Source: a virus
Reading direction: 5' to 3' (one strand)
Length of the DNA stretch: 43,863 bases
Virus record (IMG/VR): IMGVR_UViG_3300028597_000028
Span: 1-43,863 of that record
The notes beneath the pieces are model-generated. The model made no database searches. It was given only the letters and a program-made list of their open reading frames with translations, and had not been told where the DNA came from. The first letter of the stretch is position 1, and every line of letters begins with the position of its first letter. Below, in pieces: positions 2,018-15,419 of this stretch. The position numbers and the translations under genes were made by a program.

Positions 2018-4825
2018 GTGGCCCGTGCTCACCTGTTTCGCCCCATCACCGACCGCGAGGGCAACTTGCTCTACAACGCGACGGTGACTGTGCGGGAAGT
2101 GGACTACTCGATCCCGATCGGTCAGCCGCTCTACGCGGGCCCCACCGGGGACGAGGTCCTGGACAACCCCTTCACGGCGGTCAACGGCGTGATCGACTTC
2201 TGGATCGACAAGCCGCAGCGGATGTCCATCCTGGCTCAGCACGAGCAGGTGTCGGACATCCTGGTGTACCTGGACGCCCCGCCGCCGCCCGAGGAGATCG
2301 TCTCCACCTCGGCCCCGCTGGAGATCGTCAACAACCCCACGGTGTCCGGCCAGGTCCTCCTGAGCACCTCGGTGGCCGGGCAGGCCCAGTGGGGCAATCC
2401 GCCCTCCGGGACGGGCCTGACGCCGGTTGTGGTGGCCAGCTCCCAGAGCTTCAACGGCGGGGGTGACCCTGCGGGCTGGGGCTTCGCCGAGACGAACGGC
2501 GGAGGCCACTCCTACGACCCCCTGACGATCCCTCCCGGGACGAACTACCAGTACGCCCTGCGGATGACCCAGTCGGCCAACAGCGGGACGGTGACCCTCA
2601 CCGGTCCGACCTTCTCCCTGCTGGAGACCGGCCGCCTGTCCCTGTGGGTGAAGTCCCAGATCTCCTCCGGGGAGACCTTCACCATGAAGGTCACCGACTC
2701 GCTGGCGGTCCAGACCACCCTGGCCACGGTCAGCGCGACCCGGGACTGGGGCTTCTACGCCTTCGACCTCGGGCCCGGCACCTACACCCCGATCTTCACC
2801 TACACCGGACAGGCCGTCTTCGAGGCCGGGGATCACCTCGTGTGGCTGACGGGCTACGTCTCCCAGTACGGCGGCAACATCCCTCCGCACAACCACGGCG
2901 GGGCCGGGGCGAACTCGGTGGTCCTCGGAACGGGCGCGACGGCGGCCGGGGACGCCTCCACGGCCATCGGCGTCAACGCGAGCGCGGCCGGACTCAATGC
3001 CGCTGCCTTCGGGTACGGCTCGAACGCTCCCGGGACGAACACTCTTGCGGTGGGGTACAACGCCACGGCGGGCGGCGACTACTCCCTGGCCGTCGGCTCT
3101 GGTGCGGGCGGCAACCCGACCAGTCAGGCCTGGACCGCCATTGGCTACGGGGCGAACGCGGGCGGGACCGAGTCTCTTGCGGTGGGCAAGAACGCCTCGG
3201 CCCAGGCCGAGTACTCCGCTGCCGTGGGCTCCGGATCGCAGGTGGCGGCCACCGGCACCTCGGCCGTCGCCATTGGCCAGAACGCCATCGCGAACGCCCC
3301 CAACTCGGTCGCCATCGGCCAGGGGGCCGAGGTCGGCACCACCCACAACAACTCCGTGGCTCTCGGCTCCGGCGCGGTCACCACCAGTGCGAACCAGATC
3401 GCCCTCGGGCACCCGGGTGCCATCACCACGATCACCGGGTCGCTCCAGAACTACGGTCTGGCCTCGTTGGGTTCGGCCAACAGCCGGGTGGGCTTCTACG
3501 GCACCGCAGGGACCATCCGGCAGACCGTCTCGGGATCCGACGACGGGAACGTGACCCTGAGGACCCTCGTCCGGGCCCTGGCCGACCTCGGGCTGATCGC
3601 GAACCAGTCGATCGAGCAGCCGTTCTCGTCGACCACTCCGGTCGGCGTGATCGACTTCTTTTACCACCAGGACCCGGGCGACGGCTCCCTGGGCGTGGCC
3701 GACTTCGACTACGCGCCGTACTCGTACTTCCCTCTGCCGTTCTCCGACCAGAGTCCTTACCCGTCGGGACCGCAGTGGTTCGTAGGTGCCGACCACAACG
3801 CCTACAAGGGCTACGAGGGCGGCCTGGGCGTCCTCAAGAACATCTACCAGACCCGCCAGAACTTCTACATCTCCCTGACGTTCACAGGCACCGGGAACAA
3901 GGCGGCCTTCGCGATCCGCCACACGGGCCAGAGCGGCTCCAGCGCGGCGGCGGGATACATCATCCTGGACCAGGCGGCGAACACGGTCTCGCTGGCCACC
4001 AAGGCCCCGGGAGACCCCTCGAACACCTACACCGTGGCGGCGGGGAACTCCGTGTCCCTGGCGTCGATCGGCTCGCTGCCCTTCAACGGGCTCGCGCACT
4101 CGCACTTCATCGCGGTCTCCGGCCCGAACGTGATGTACGTCGACTCCATCGACGGCACTCCGGTCTTCTTCAACGCTCCCGCGCTGAACCTGACGGGCAA
4201 GTACATGGGCCTGGACCTGGCCCAGACCACCACCAAGTTCAACAACATCGCGTTCCTGCCGAACTACGTCTTCGACGGTTTCCGCACCACCGGCGCGCTG
4301 AGCAACGCGGCCTCCGGCGAGGCCTGGTGGCCGGTCACCTCCGGCGCGGGATCGGCGGTCACGGTGTCGGCGGCAGGGAATCTCTCGCTCACCGGTGCCT
4401 CCGGCGGGTACGCCCTGGCCTACGTCCTGACGCAGCCCACCACGGCCATGAAGACCGTCTCCACCCGGTGGAGCGCCTCCGTCACGCCGACCACGGGCAT
4501 GGGTGTGGTCGGCCGGTACGTGGACCCCAACAACTACATCTTCTGCAACAACTCTCAGATCACGAGGGTGCTCGGCGGCGTCCAGACCACCCTGGCCACC
4601 TACAGCTCGAACATGGCGGCCGGAGACAAGATGAACATCCAGTTCACGTCAGGCGGGCAGATCACCGTGCTGAAGAACACCACTCAGGTGGCCACGGCCA
4701 ACGACACCTCCCCCGCGTTGCTCGCGTCCAACCGCTACGGCCTCGGGGTGCGGGGCACCGGCACGGCCGGATTCCAGTACTTCTGGTCCTACGACCAGTT
4801 CAACTCGGGGGTGTTGTACAAGTGA
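2018..4825 (+). CDS. Large tail fibre / receptor-binding protein with YadA-like repeats
   Basis: A GTG start at 2018 is preceded by GAGGAG at 2005-2010. The 935-residue protein has the same N-terminal module as its neighbours (ARAHLFRPITDREGNLLYNA; NPFTAVNGVIDFWIDKP). A beta-rich segment (~140-290) leads to HNHGGAGANS. About ten YadA/Hep_Hag-type repeats (S-x-A-x-G, residues ~296-467) follow. Next is a conserved phage-fibre segment, GFYGTAGTIRQTV, leading to VRALADLGLI (~490-535). Two C-terminal beta-sandwich regions (~550-750 and ~750-935) with W/Y-rich lectin-like composition probably bind the host surface. The stop overlaps the start of the next gene (GTGA). This is the likeliest main receptor-binding protein, inferred from size and C-terminal elaboration. 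Confidence 0.75.
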   Translation: MARAHLFRPITDREGNLLYNATVTVREVDYSIPIGQPLYAGPTGDEVLDNPFTAVNGVIDFWIDKPQRMSILAQHEQVSDILVYLDAPPPPEEIVSTSAPLEIVNNPTVSGQVLLSTSVAGQAQWGNPPSGTGLTPVVVASSQSFNGGGDPAGWGFAETNGGGHSYDPLTIPPGTNYQYALRMTQSANSGTVTLTGPTFSLLETGRLSLWVKSQISSGETFTMKVTDSLAVQTTLATVSATRDWGFYAFDLGPGTYTPIFTYTGQAVFEAGDHLVWLTGYVSQYGGNIPPHNHGGAGANSVVLGTGATAAGDASTAIGVNASAAGLNAAAFGYGSNAPGTNTLAVGYNATAGGDYSLAVGSGAGGNPTSQAWTAIGYGANAGGTESLAVGKNASAQAEYSAAVGSGSQVAATGTSAVAIGQNAIANAPNSVAIGQGAEVGTTHNNSVALGSGAVTTSANQIALGHPGAITTITGSLQNYGLASLGSANSRVGFYGTAGTIRQTVSGSDDGNVTLRTLVRALADLGLIANQSIEQPFSSTTPVGVIDFFYHQDPGDGSLGVADFDYAPYSYFPLPFSDQSPYPSGPQWFVGADHNAYKGYEGGLGVLKNIYQTRQNFYISLTFTGTGNKAAFAIRHTGQSGSSAAAGYIILDQAANTVSLATKAPGDPSNTYTVAAGNSVSLASIGSLPFNGLAHSHFIAVSGPNVMYVDSIDGTPVFFNAPALNLTGKYMGLDLAQTTTKFNNIAFLPNYVFDGFRTTGALSNAASGEAWWPVTSGAGSAVTVSAAGNLSLTGASGGYALAYVLTQPTTAMKTVSTRWSASVTPTTGMGVVGRYVDPNNYIFCNNSQITRVLGGVQTTLATYSSNMAAGDKMNIQFTSGGQITVLKNTTQVATANDTSPALLASNRYGLGVRGTGTAGFQYFWSYDQFNSGVLYK

Positions 4826-7324: not shown

Positions 7325-7618
7325 ATGAACCTCGAAAACGCTGTGTCCCGCATGGTGATGCGGGCGCGGCAGTTCGAGCGTGCTGTGCACGACCCCGGCC
7401 CGTGGACGATCGTCGTGGACGGAGTCGAGAGCCCCGCGCGCAAGGTCCTCGGGGCGGATCACGCGACCTTCTACGCGATCGTTCGCTGCGACAAGGAAGC
7501 GCCGGTTGCCGAACTCCGGTGCAACGGCGAGATCGTCGCGGTGAAGCAGCTCGGACCCGTGGGGCACGCTCAGATCTCCTGGGGGTTCGAGATCGACGAG
7601 GCGATGGTGCTTGCATGA
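7325..7618 (+). CDS. Unknown 97-residue protein, first gene of helicase operon
   Basis: An ATG at 7325 is preceded by GGGAGGG. The product (MNLENAVSRMVMRARQFERA...) has a short amphipathic N-terminal helix, then a beta-rich half with IVVDGVE and VAELRCNGEIVAVKQLG. It has a small-domain look, but no family is recognised. Its TGA stop overlaps the ATG of the SNF2-like helicase gene (ATGA at 7615-7618), so the two are probably translationally coupled and may act together. Function is unknown. Confidence 0.75.
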   Translation: MNLENAVSRMVMRARQFERAVHDPGPWTIVVDGVESPARKVLGADHATFYAIVRCDKEAPVAELRCNGEIVAVKQLGPVGHAQISWGFEIDEAMVLA

Positions 7619-9171
7619 CTCAGACCCTGATACCCGCCCCCTCTGCGCACTGGCCGGAGGGGGCTCTTTATTATTCCGATCGCGGGCTGTACGACTTCCA
7701 GACCGAGCACATCGCACAGGCCTACGTGGGCGTCCAGAGCGGCGAGCAGCCGGAGTGGATGTTCTCCTGGGACACCGGTCTCGGAAAGTCCCACGCGGCC
7801 ATGCAGCTTGCCGCTCTGGCCTTCGAGGACGGCCTGGCGGATCTGGTGATCCTGGTGTGCGAGAAGAACAAGCTCAAGGAGTGGCAGGAGGACTTCGGAA
7901 AGTTCACCCGCCTGAATTCCCGCATCCACCATGGGTCCTCGCGGAAGAACAAGCTGGCCAAGCTCGGGCTGCCGGACGTCCTGATCACCACGTACGAGAC
8001 CGGCAAGGCCGACCTGGTGCGGTCGGTGATGGCCAACCGGCGCAAGACCCTGGAGTCCGGCGAGCTGCTGACGAAGGTCTTCTCGGACCACCGGCGACCC
8101 GTGGTCTTCTTCGACGAGGCCGACAAGCTCTCGAACCGGTCTTCGGCCACCTACAAGGCGTACGAGTACACCCTGAAGGCCCTCCGGAAGGTTTTTAAAA
8201 ATCTCCCGGTGTTCATGATGACGGCCACCAGCATCCGTAAGGACTACGAGAACGCCTTCAACCAGCTCCGGCTGCTGCGGCCCCAGGCCATGCCGCTGAT
8301 CAAGGAGTTCGACTCGTACTTCGTGCGGGGGCGGGACATCTACGGCAAGGCCCGGTACTGGGACCACCGCACCGAGGAGTTCGCGGCCCTCTGCCAGCCC
8401 CTGATGCTCTCCAAGAGGAAGACGGATCCCGACGTGGTGAACCAGTTCCCGGCGATGACCGAGGAGGTGCTCTGGGTCGACATGGAGGGCGACCAGAGGA
8501 AGCTCTACGACCTCGTGGCGGAGATGGACGGCGTGGGCGGTCAGCTCCAGGCCCTGCGACAGATCTGCGCGCACCCTCTGTCGATCGCCCACAGTGCCCG
8601 CGAGGGCTCCTCGAAGCTCGCCAGGACCCTCGTGGACGAGTTCGGCGTGGAATACCTCCAGAAGGCCCCCAGCGCGAAGCTGGAGGCCCTCGTGCGGTAC
8701 CTGGAGCCGGTCGTCCTGGGTCAGGGGGACAAGGCGGTGGTCTTCACGTTCTTCGGGCCCTCGGTGATCCCGCACCTGCACTTCGCCCTGCGCAACGAGG
8801 GCATCCGGTGCTTCCGGCTGGAGGAGCTGGACGAGTTCAAGGCCCACCAGGGCGGAGCCGTCCTGCTCACCTCGGACGCCGGGGCCCGAGGGGTGAACAT
8901 CCCCGAGGCCTCCTACCTCGTCGAGTACGACATGGCGGTGACGTACGGCCTGCGGACCCAGCGGCTGAACCGGATCTCCCGGATCGGCTCCGGCGGCCCG
9001 ACTGCTACGGTCCGCTCGATGCTCACTCGCCAGTCGGTCGAGGTCGGGCTGATGTTCGCGATGCTCCGGGGCAACGCTCAGTCGGACGAGCTTCTGGGCT
9101 CGGGAGTCGACGGCTCGGAGTACATGACGGCTGCCATGCGGCGGCAGATGCTCACGGAAGGCATGGAATGA
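7615..9171 (+). CDS. SNF2-like superfamily 2 DNA helicase
   Basis: The start is the ATG at 7615, overlapping the previous stop; the longer open frame upstream is a shadow. The 518-residue protein carries superfamily 2 motifs in order. These are motif I SWDTGLGKS (~51-59), motif Ia/Ib in the VILVCEKNKLKEWQ area, motif II FFDEADK (~166-172), motif III TATS, motif V SDAGARGVNI and motif VI QRLNRISRIG. DEAD plus a C-terminal QRxxRxxRxG resembles SNF2/RapA-type DNA translocases. This class is common in actinobacteriophages, where it may remodel replication forks or displace bound proteins. There is no sign of a nuclease domain. Length and motif completeness suggest an active enzyme; the exact process served is not known. 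Confidence 0.85.
   Translation: MTQTLIPAPSAHWPEGALYYSDRGLYDFQTEHIAQAYVGVQSGEQPEWMFSWDTGLGKSHAAMQLAALAFEDGLADLVILVCEKNKLKEWQEDFGKFTRLNSRIHHGSSRKNKLAKLGLPDVLITTYETGKADLVRSVMANRRKTLESGELLTKVFSDHRRPVVFFDEADKLSNRSSATYKAYEYTLKALRKVFKNLPVFMMTATSIRKDYENAFNQLRLLRPQAMPLIKEFDSYFVRGRDIYGKARYWDHRTEEFAALCQPLMLSKRKTDPDVVNQFPAMTEEVLWVDMEGDQRKLYDLVAEMDGVGGQLQALRQICAHPLSIAHSAREGSSKLARTLVDEFGVEYLQKAPSAKLEALVRYLEPVVLGQGDKAVVFTFFGPSVIPHLHFALRNEGIRCFRLEELDEFKAHQGGAVLLTSDAGARGVNIPEASYLVEYDMAVTYGLRTQRLNRISRIGSGGPTATVRSMLTRQSVEVGLMFAMLRGNAQSDELLGSGVDGSEYMTAAMRRQMLTEGME
8192..8201. repeat. TTTTTAAAAA palindrome within helicase gene
   Basis: A ten-base perfect A/T palindrome (GTTTTTAAAAA with flank) lies inside the helicase coding frame, encoding V-F-K-N. 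It recurs at 13161, 18025 and 29623 in an otherwise very GC-rich sequence. Confidence 0.5.
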
Positions 9172-9796: not shown

Positions 9797-10062
9797 ACGA
9801 CTTCTTCTCGGACGTCCGGGATCTCGTCGACCAGTCCCCTCTGAAGGGCAAGGGCACGTTCGTCCTGGACGTGCGGTACGCCCTGAGCGACGAGGGGGCC
9901 CTGTTCGAGATGACCTTCTTCCCGGGCATGGACCGGCCGAGGATCGTGGCCAAGTGGATCATCGACCTGATGCGGATGGCCGAGGAGGGCGCGACGCACC
10001 GGGAACTGGTCCAGAAGGGGCTGGATGCGGTCCACGAGGCGTATCTGGCGCGGGGCTACTGA
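9793..10062 (+). CDS. Unknown 89-residue protein, last gene of helicase operon
   Basis: The GTG at 9793 overlaps the previous stop (GTGA). The protein runs NDFFSDVRDLVDQ, then strands FVLDVRYALS and LFEMTFFPGM, then a helix-rich end (VAKWIIDLMRMAEE...). The strand-strand-helix order resembles the product of the 9168 gene. The operon ends here: the TGA at 10060-10062 is followed by 780 bp without a convincing gene. Function is unknown. Confidence 0.7.
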   Translation: MNDFFSDVRDLVDQSPLKGKGTFVLDVRYALSDEGALFEMTFFPGMDRPRIVAKWIIDLMRMAEEGATHRELVQKGLDAVHEAYLARGY

Positions 10063-10067
10063 TCCAG

Positions 10068-10096
10068 TTGTACTCCCGCATATCTTGGAGTAACGT
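10068..10096 (+). promoter_or_regulatory. Sigma-70-like promoter for the non-coding region
   Basis: TTGTAC (10068-10073), a 17-bp spacer and TAACGT (10091-10096) resemble a vegetative promoter and would start RNA near 10103. The spacer contains CTTGGAG, also seen at 13146-13152 and 36154-36160. It sits just after the previous stop and ahead of the structured region. Confidence 0.5.
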
Positions 10097-10261
10097 CTTC
10101 CTCGTCGGGCCTCCGGGCCCTACAAGACCGGATCGTCTTGCACGCCTTTGGACAGGTCGAGCGCCACGTCCCCGGTCACCTGCTCGGTCGGACCAGGAAT
10201 CCGGCCGGGTGCACAACGGCCACTGGAGGGGTGGAGAGCGCCTCCAGTGGCCAGGTGGTAA

Positions 10262-10331
10262 GCGGGACGGCCTGATTCGGTGCGGCGGTGTCGAAGGGGG
10301 CCCGAGGGGGGTTCGAATCCTCTGTCCCGCA
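10262..10331 (+). ncRNA. tRNA-like fold lacking a normal anticodon arm
   Basis: GCGGGAC (10262-10268) pairs perfectly with GTCCCGC (10324-10330) as a 7-bp acceptor stem with discriminator A. A T-arm with loop TTCGAAT is exact. A D-like arm, GCC-TGATTCGGTGC-GGC, carries the GG of a D-loop. Only 20 nt remain where a tRNA needs about 23, and they form no 5-bp anticodon stem; no CCA is encoded. It is therefore a tRNA mimic, a decayed tRNA or a domain of the larger RNA. A tmRNA tRNA-like half was considered, but no separate partner half was found. Confidence 0.55.
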
Positions 10332-10742
10332 CGGGTGCGTGTAAGTGAGACACCTCGCTTCGGGCAGACCCTCCCATGGGGGTCAGCGCACCAAGGCCAA
10401 GGCCTCCGTCCAGGAGCCGATCGCAGTCCTCCCCGGGCTGTTGGCCGAATAGGGGAAGGCCGCGTCACCTTCGGGTGGTGCCGTGACAGCGTGGCCCCGT
10501 GCTGTGGCCGATACGGGGCTCCCAAGGATGTGCCCAGGGCGTTCTCCTTTCCGCCCCGGCACAGCAGCAGACCGCCCGGGACGGTCAGGCTAAGCGGGTC
10601 GCGGACCTCCCGTTGCTGCGAAAAAGGACCGTAGGGGCACCCAGACGCACCGTGAGATGAGCCCGACTGCAAGCGGGTGGACTCCGGGCGGCCTGGGCCA
10701 ACTGGAGGAAAGCACCGCCTCTTCCCCGAAATGGGCAACGGC

Positions 10743-10776
10743 AAGGCCCCGGACAACTTGTGGCGTCCGGGGCCTT
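10743..10776 (+). terminator. Strong intrinsic terminator of the structured RNA
   Basis: AAGGCCCCGGAC (10743-10754) and GTCCGGGGCCTT (10765-10776) form a perfect 12-bp stem with a 10-nt loop. No U-run follows, as is usual in GC-rich actinobacterial terminators. It would end rightward transcription. Confidence 0.7.
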
Positions 10777-10789
10777 CGTCGTGTCTGGA

Positions 10790-10833
10790 CGTCCCCACCC
10801 CCGGGGCGTGTCCAGTTCCCCGGGGGTGGGACG
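10790..10833 (-). terminator. Terminator of the leftward antirepressor transcript
   Basis: CGTCCCCACCCCCGGGG (10790-10806) pairs with CCCCGGGGGTGGGACG (10818-10833), giving a 16-bp stem with one bulged C. It lies 10 bp past the stop of the minus-strand gene at 10844 and next to the rightward terminator, so the two convergent transcripts are separated. Confidence 0.7.
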
Positions 10834-10843
10834 CCGCAGGAGT

Positions 10844-11788
10844 CTAACGGTGCTGGGAGACCTCCCTGTACCGCCGCATGTCAATCACCCCGCCAGGAGT
10901 CCGGATGACCTCCGGGGCCCGCTGGGCCGGGATCGTGGCCAGCAGCTCGGGGCGGCTCTGCTCGCGCATCCGCTGCTGAATCCACTCCAGGCCCTTGACG
11001 GTGATCCGGAGCTGGGCGTTCGCCTCCTTGAAGCCGCCCGGGACGTCGTTGTCCGGCCGGGACTGGGGCTTGAGCCGCAGCCGGTCGGAGTGGACCGCGT
11101 AGGGGATGTACGCGCCGTTCAGCTTCCGCTGGGCCATGCCGTTGTCCACGACCCACCGGAAGAGCTTCTGCGGGCCCACCAGGTGGGCTATCGACTCGTC
11201 CCGCATCAGGATGTACGCGGCCTCCCGGACGGAGTAGTCCTGACCGACGTCCGCAAGGGACTCCCAGGCCTCCGCAGGGGGCCGGAGCATCTCCGCCTCG
11301 GCCTTCGCCTCGGCCGCCTGGAGTTCGGCCTTCTCGCGGGCTTCCACCTCGTCGGCCCAGGCCCTCAACGCCTGCGGCAGGGTCGGCATCGCCTGGGGCA
11401 CTGCCTGCTGGACGGCCTCCATCCGCTGGGTCTGGAGCACGAAGTAGTGCTGGGCCGCCGCGATCTCGGGCTTGTTCGGGTCGCCGTTGATGAAGGTGAA
11501 GTGGCAGGCCGTGCGGCTCAGCCGCCAGTCGGTGACGTTTGCAGGACGACCCCGACCACGTTCCTGCTGGTCAGGATTTTTCGGCAAACTCACCAATGCA
11601 AAGTGATCCGAGGGGTCGTACCCCTCCTGGACCATGGCGCTCCGGGCGTCGTTGATCGCCCGCTGGAAGTTCCGCCAGTCGACGTAGCCCGCGTGGGGCA
11701 TCAGCTCGCGCCCCATCCAGTACTCGCCCCGATCGTCGACACGCCGGAGCGTCTCGAAGGGGTTCCCGCCCTGCATCACCTCGGTCAT
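10844..11788 (-). CDS. Phage antirepressor, Bro-N/P22-AR-like with KilAC C-terminus
   Basis: The ATG at 11788 is preceded on the minus strand by GGGGAGGAT. The 314-residue protein has an N-terminal Bro/DinD-like region (residues ~8-130: NPFETLRRVDDRGEYWMGRE, HFTFINGDPNKPEIAAAQHYF). A coiled-coil-prone Ala/Glu linker (~140-180) follows, then a KilAC-type domain (~185-310: YSVREAAYILM...LFRWVVDNGM, ITVKGLEWIQQRM). Such proteins counter or replace repressors and bind DNA in temperate and some lytic phages. It is the last gene of the only minus-strand block, consistent with a regulatory switch. No repressor of the classic Cro/CI type is recognisable in the window. The family call is good; the target is unknown. 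Confidence 0.75.
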   Translation of the reverse strand: MTEVMQGGNPFETLRRVDDRGEYWMGRELMPHAGYVDWRNFQRAINDARSAMVQEGYDPSDHFALVSLPKNPDQQERGRGRPANVTDWRLSRTACHFTFINGDPNKPEIAAAQHYFVLQTQRMEAVQQAVPQAMPTLPQALRAWADEVEAREKAELQAAEAKAEAEMLRPPAEAWESLADVGQDYSVREAAYILMRDESIAHLVGPQKLFRWVVDNGMAQRKLNGAYIPYAVHSDRLRLKPQSRPDNDVPGGFKEANAQLRITVKGLEWIQQRMREQSRPELLATIPAQRAPEVIRTPGGVIDMRRYREVSQHR

Positions 11789-15276: not shown

Positions 15277-15376
15277 TAGAATGAGGGTCTCGGGGCCGGG
15301 CACGGCAAGGCAAGGCGAGGCCTGGCGCGGCGAGGCAGGGAGAAGGGGTCCTCTTCGGAGGGTCCCTTCGTTTTTC
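15277..15376 (+). ncRNA. Possible ~90-nt small RNA with own promoter and terminator
   Basis: A -10-like TAGAAT at 15277-15282 lies in TGATAGAATGAGGGTCTCG. RNA could start near 15289 and end at the terminator at 15343-15375. The body is a run of GGC/AAGGC/GAGGC units. A similar TGATA-NN-AT...AGGGTCTTG element precedes another terminator at 17920-18029. No good -35 is seen, so this may simply be a readthrough region. Confidence 0.3.
15343..15375 (+). terminator. Terminator with UUCG tetraloop
   Basis: AAGGG-GT-CCTC, tetraloop TTCG and GAGG-GT-CCCTT form a symmetric stem with a GT/GT internal loop (15343-15368), followed by CG and TTTTT (15371-15375). It ends the DinG-like helicase transcript. 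Confidence 0.75.
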
Positions 15377-15397
15377 CTCCCCTTTCGGACTAGCGGT

Positions 15398-15419
15398 ACT
15401 CCAAGGATTCCTGTAGCAT
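15398..15419 (+). promoter_or_regulatory. Conserved ACTCCAAGGATTCCTG promoter element, copy 2
   Basis: The 16-mer at 15398-15413 is directly followed by TAGCAT (15414-15419, -10-like), then ACGCCAGAGA at 15427-15436 and the next gene's ribosome-binding site. It is two bases shorter than copy 1 between element and TAG. The 16-mer is a partial palindrome (CCAAGGA/TTCCTGG in copy 1). Confidence 0.55.

Follow-up and report, generated by a model that had tools for sequence, protein, structure and literature searches.

Very large phage RNAs are known in only a few classes, and one of these, GOLLD, forms an RNA nanocage of 14 subunits. Phages also carry the ROOL RNAs, in which we know of no internal tRNA-like domain. 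The cages formed by GOLLD and ROOL are of poorly understood use, and the linkers of GOLLD sometimes hold tRNAs (PMC12286853). Additionally, phage ICP1 makes a non-coding RNA of ~800 nt, of unknown class, that exceeds every other transcript of this phage in abundance (PMC7567579).

Here, we describe a locus that invites comparison with these systems, in an IMG/VR virus record of 43,863 bp that was analyzed at its full length (the window). The record has a high GC content, encodes a DnaE-type polymerase, DnaB, a primase, and helicases, and comes from an uncultured phage of the actinobacteria type, with a polymerase that is ~30% identical to those of 155-kb mycobacteriophages. Specifically, an intergenic gap of 781 bp (10063-10843) extends from a stop codon at 10062 to a convergent antirepressor-like gene that ends at 10844 (10844-11788, − strand; PHROG anti-repressor Ant). 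Syntenic gaps in other phages, conserved islands, covariation, and the absence of a conserved ORF together point to a structured non-coding RNA on the + strand, with predicted ends at 10103 and 10780, and we infer a transcript of ~670 nt. The resemblance to GOLLD and ROOL is in kind only: the RNAs are phage-borne, measure 630-740 nt across members, and combine many helices with a pseudoknot and, in some members, a tRNA-like insert.

Synteny and non-coding character of the locus

We collected relatives using the flanking antirepressor, the SNF2-type helicase, and a DinG-like helicase as queries. A non-coding gap of similar size lies behind the same SNF2-type helicase gene (7618-9171 in the window, + strand; PHROG DNA helicase) in five further IMG/VR phage genomes, three of them of 154-160 kb, such that this gene is located upstream of the RNA in all six. 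The five are L003 (a 59-kb contig), L002 (26 kb), L007 (156 kb, to which L008 is 99.97% identical), L042 (160 kb), and L010 (154 kb). All six genomes agree in the position of the gap, in its promoter, and in a terminator-like 3′ end; by these comparisons five can be counted as secure members, and L010 is placed by position, promoter, and tRNA-like fold only. No such RNA was found behind the helicase gene of the more distant L011, L012, and L013. The helicase ORF of L042 (118-2829) is itself unusual, with 903 aa as opposed to ~517 and an intein-like insertion after GLGK of the Walker motif.

BLASTN searches against named phages and plasmids returned no match to the region, and DNA-pattern scans of IMG/VR with four motifs recovered the known relatives, the remaining matches being due to chance. 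A search for the helicase in 84,980 bacterial and archaeal genomes gave a single distant and unrelated match. The RNA family is so far found only in a small group of large, high-GC phages, ~155 kb where near-complete, that are distant relatives of actinobacteriophages.

The gap had caught attention in an initial sequence-only reading as ~780 bp devoid of a plausible gene, an observation borne out by its 781 bp and the absence of a conserved ORF. That reading held that a conserved protein encoded in homologues would speak against an RNA. Translation of every stop-to-stop frame in the six gaps exposed no conserved ORF, only short similarities that were scattered over many frames and both strands, and which therefore reflect conserved nucleotide islands, not a protein. 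Between the window and L003, the gap is 63.6% identical with 225 gap columns, and the adjoining upstream genes are 73% identical with 16. Four ordered islands, GGACAGGTCGAG(C/T)GCCAC, CCTCCCGNNGCNNCGRAAAAGG, GGTGGACTCC, and CCCGAAATG, are common to the window, L003, L002, and L007, and amid diverged flanks the box GGACAGGTCGAGCGCCAC (10150-10167, + strand) is identical in the window, L003, and L007, with one change in L002. A covariance model (R1) of the CCTCCCG...AAAAGG core, built from the same four sequences, found L042 at the syntenic place (E 2e-4), independently of the training set. R1 occurs as a single copy in each of five genomes, and its search gave no match in L010.

Promoter, terminator-like hairpin, and folded domains

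The left end of the gap bears a putative + strand promoter (10068-10096) with the hexamers TTGTAC (10068-10073) and TAACGT (10091-10096), separated by 17 nt that include GCATATCTTGGAG. This layout is kept at the start of the gap in all six genomes: TTGNNN and TANCNT are 17-18 nt apart, and the spacer between them is GCATTCGTTGGAG or a near variant. At the right end, the candidate terminator is a perfect 12-bp hairpin (10743-10776, + strand; arms 10743-10754 and 10765-10776) with the loop AACUUGUGGC and without a U tract. Hairpins whose loop contains ACUYGUGG are in the equivalent position in L003, L002, L007, and L042. The sequence-only reading had named both elements, and they are present at these exact coordinates and conserved in relatives, but a strict scan for sigma-70 promoters and U-tract terminators called neither, because the hexamers are weak and the terminator lacks a U run. 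Support for these candidates thus comes from conservation, not from a consensus match. High-GC actinobacteria have terminators without a U tract. Because looser variants of the promoter motif occur elsewhere in these phages, it is probably a phage-wide promoter type.

The spacer motif recurs in variant form (GCAATCCTTGGAGTA) at 15395-15411 of the window (− strand) and at several sites in the relatives' genomes. Arrays of five-base units GGCNN (NNGCC in reverse reading) also recur in these phages, in short gaps adjoining terminator-like hairpins: at 15297-15340 in the window, 8360-8444 in L003, ~4010-4075 and ~4600-4660 in L042, and 9565-9990 in L010, the last being the most extensive and directly 5′ of the RNA promoter. 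We also considered whether the conserved box pairs with the terminator loop (CCAC/GUGG), but dropped the idea, as the pairing is invariant and only 4 bp are common to all.

Within the RNA, a perfect 12-bp inverted repeat (10218-10252, + strand; arms 10218-10229 and 10241-10252) follows ACAACGGYC and directly precedes a tRNA-like domain; L003, L002 (14 bp), and L007 have equivalent hairpins of other sequence, in which the third pair, C-G in the window, is U-A. The tRNA-like domain (10262-10331, + strand) consists of a 7-bp acceptor (10262-10268/10324-10330), two joining bases, a T arm (10307-10323) whose 5-bp stem adjoins the acceptor and closes a TTCGAAT loop, and an A at position 73. The layout is equivalent in L003 and L007, with a longer middle, and in L010 the T stem contains a bulged A. 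Both sides have changed in nine of the 12 pairs, counted with the L010 bulge left out of the row, a level that none of 500 shuffles equaled and that collapses when registers are slid; with L010 read straight, eight pairs have changed on both sides (again 0/500 shuffles). When the six RNAs were shuffled by mononucleotide, none of 30,000 sequences contained the architecture, and it was not found elsewhere in the window. Structure prediction for the window domain gives no anticodon arm of normal shape. All four tRNA-like domains have A73, and in three the base preceding the acceptor is A. L002 and L042 carry other stem-closed modules instead, so that the domain, present in four of six members, cannot be an essential function of the whole family. 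In L009 9546-10180 (the L002 RNA), the segment that precedes the 3′ core has the reverse complement GCCCGTATGGCGCAGCGGTTTGGACACCGCCTTGCC, which resembles a tRNA 5′ half on the opposite strand.

Further downstream, a predicted H-type pseudoknot (10486-10519, + strand; ACAGC-GUG-GCCCC-GU-GCUGU-GGCCGAUAC-GGGGC) recurs as a module in L003 and twice in L042. Its stem 1 has changed on both sides at three of five pairs, stem 2 is invariant, and the loop is conserved; a similar module in L010, whose alignment is uncertain, did not enter the count. In L042 (3500-3760), two and perhaps three copies of this small module are consecutive in one RNA.

The 3′ core (10591-10637, + strand), a hairpin AGCGGG...CCCGUU with CCU in its loop followed by GCU-GCGAAAAA-GGA, is kept in the window, L003, L002, and L007, and is the region in which R1 finds L042. 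Its helix (10593-10598/10609-10614) pairs in five genomes, with three of six pairs changed on both sides in an alignment fitted to the model. Two smaller + strand hairpins follow. The first (10661-10685), GCCCG/CGGGU, leads into the conserved GGUGGACUCC, a motif shared by the window, L003, L002, and L007; its stem varies in sequence and was left out of the formal count because MAFFT offsets it by one column between homologue pairs. The second (10704-10733; arms 10704-10707/10719-10722), GGAG/CUCU, precedes the conserved CCCGAAAUG and has two of four pairs changed on both sides.

Compensatory changes are thus found in the tRNA-like domain, the pseudoknot, and the 3′ hairpins by the comparison with homologous gaps that the sequence-only reading had proposed as a check, in counts that are small because the sequences are few. 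The 12-bp hairpin and the tRNA-like fold that it had pointed out both hold, and the UUCG tetraloop is present in the gap (CACC-UUCG-GGUG). Its short perfect stems and three-way junction fared less well, most being indistinguishable from chance in one GC-rich sequence.

Over all helices with support, G-U occupies 16 cells and A-C none, which points to the + strand as the RNA; the observation is supportive and not independent, since the helices were chosen in the + reading. Folding z-scores of the six RNAs ranged from -2.6 to -5.8 (mean -3.7), each below its own shuffles, and the window RNA scored -1.5 or -2.7 in two runs. Eleven controls from the window averaged ~-1.5, with two below -3 and the lowest reaching -4.3. 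Because some controls fold equally well, the folding energy of the window RNA is weak evidence, and the overlap led us to reject the z-score as sole evidence.

Comparison with catalogued RNA families

No Rfam family, GOLLD, ROOL, tmRNA, and tRNA included, reached its gathering threshold anywhere in the window, so that the search that had been suggested for the locus places it in no catalogued family. A permissive scan of the region returned matches at chance level only, and a weak echo of tRNA-Sec (RF01852) at 10261-10331 scored 19.1 bits against a cut-off of 47. ARAGORN found neither a tRNA nor a tmRNA in the window. The GOLLD and ROOL models gave no match at E ≤10 in the region or at E ≤1 in the six whole records, the latter being a search without a positive control among the control genomes. 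RNase P RNA, considered for short similar words, was dropped for want of an Rfam match.

Like the present RNA, GOLLD (RF02032) is large and phage-borne, and it has a variable part able to hold a tRNA and a conserved 3′ part (PMC12286853). The 5′ part of GOLLD is less conserved. In the RNA described here, the 3′ core is conserved and the middle insert is exchangeable, so that the two may be similar in domain layout. However, many GOLLD RNAs exceed 800 nt, as opposed to ~670 nt here, and their insert is described as a tRNA, whereas no standard tRNA model accepts the insert here. ROOL (RF03087) is of similar length (659 nt in a solved example), phage-borne, and has pseudoknots, but its model does not match. 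Proximity to tRNA islands, frequent though not universal in GOLLD and ROOL, is not seen, in that canonical tRNAs are tens of kb away in the 154-160 kb relatives. The RNA of ICP1 is likewise a long transcript without an ORF in a large phage, but host and phage differ, and the likeness is one of description.

The tRNA-like domain calls for comparison with smaller RNAs as well. In tmRNA (RF00023) and viral tRNA-like structures, a tRNA mimic lacks a normal anticodon arm, and tmRNA also has pseudoknots; here, in contrast, the domain closes over only 38 to ~90 nt, the pseudoknot is located outside it, and tmRNA, which is expected to carry a tag reading frame, was matched at the locus neither by its covariance model nor by ARAGORN. 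With tRNA genes (RF00005, and RF01852 for tRNA-Sec) the domain shares the 7-bp acceptor, the 2-nt joint, the T arm against the acceptor, the TTCGAAT loop, and A73, and its acceptor stem and T arm covary. It differs from them in the negative ARAGORN result, in a T loop that reads TGCGAAT in two homologues, and in not encoding CCA, and it has neither an anticodon arm with a 7-nt loop nor a score above the family cut-off. The RNA as a whole is long, non-coding, and phage-borne with several covarying helices, as expected of large ornate phage non-coding RNAs. Since the GOLLD, ROOL, tmRNA, and tRNA models all fail, we file it as a new family. The sequence-only reading had suggested a phage RNA of ~670 nt whose class would be either similar to these or new; a new family is supported, and the similarity to GOLLD and ROOL is reduced to a general one.

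Competing explanations and a proposed role

A conserved, structured, non-coding, and modular + strand element with a candidate promoter and a terminator-like hairpin is well supported by the comparative data, and it is very probable that a structured, transcribed RNA family exists. A cis-acting DNA region, such as a replication origin or a packaging or regulatory site in which palindromes and boxes are selected and not an RNA, would suit the position of the gap between two convergent genes and its content of palindromes and conserved boxes. We consider this quite improbable, given G-U without A-C pairs in the + reading, a T loop in tRNA orientation, the pseudoknot, and the promoter and 12-bp hairpin that bracket the element in an order identical in all relatives. 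Less credible still is a functionless, drifting spacer that contains chance palindromes and what is left of a tRNA gene: such phages commonly carry tRNA genes and a T loop could outlast decay for a time, but decay is expected neither to produce compensatory changes in acceptor and T stems nor to leave near-identical islands amid diverged surroundings.

Among explanations that accept an RNA, it is unlikely that the locus encodes a precursor, with the tRNA-like and hairpin elements as cut sites for RNase P, tRNase Z, or RNase III and one or more shorter RNAs as functional products. An acceptor with a T arm approximates a minimal RNase P substrate, and the A73 of every tRNA-like domain, with the A before the acceptor in three, fits such processing. 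However, conserved islands flank the module on both sides, and the two relatives without it keep the rest. Rather more doubtful is that the RNA belongs to GOLLD (or ROOL) but has diverged very far, in which case its tRNA-like insert would correspond to the linker tRNA of some GOLLD RNAs. Size, phage origin, an exchangeable middle with a tRNA-like fold in some members only, and a better-kept 3′ domain all speak for membership; against it are the failure of the models at every threshold given above, including the search of the six records that had no positive control, and an insert that standard tRNA models refuse where that of GOLLD is described as a tRNA.

We therefore favor, with a probability of roughly 0.62 for the reading as a whole, a new family of large multidomain phage RNAs that would act in trans as scaffolds and carry an exchangeable middle module. 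Specifically, the RNA's own promoter would drive a + strand RNA of ~670 nt with several folded domains that ends at the 12-bp terminator hairpin. The body would consist of the conserved domains at the 5′ and 3′ ends. The exchangeable middle module is tRNA-like in four of the six RNAs, and there its acceptor stem and T arm would mimic the tRNA elbow. A structural or scaffold role in trans during infection, of the GOLLD and ROOL kind, is favored because an RNA from large phages that has a pseudoknot and a modular middle alongside a conserved body follows the GOLLD and ROOL pattern, with the ICP1 RNA as a further parallel; taken by itself, the trans-acting scaffold is a tentative proposal, at slightly under even odds by this analogy. 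That tRNA-handling factors bind the tRNA-like module is possible, if a little less likely again. The simplest use of the elbow mimic would be binding by RNase P, tRNase Z, or the ribosome, for trimming or docking the RNA; that elbow-binding factors dock on the module or trim at it is a conjecture. A bolder and unlikely extension is a new large-RNA class that forms an RNA-only or RNA-protein particle, with the elbow mimic as an exchangeable surface module that would capture or divert host tRNA machinery (the ribosome, RNase P, or tRNA-attacking defence enzymes) during infection.

A family equal in size to GOLLD and ROOL, without detectable relation to either and with a built-in exchangeable tRNA-like module, would represent an independent case among very large phage RNAs. 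Should this family, too, prove to form cages or to bind tRNA-handling factors, what the linker tRNA does in GOLLD would become testable by comparison between the families and by deletion of a single module.
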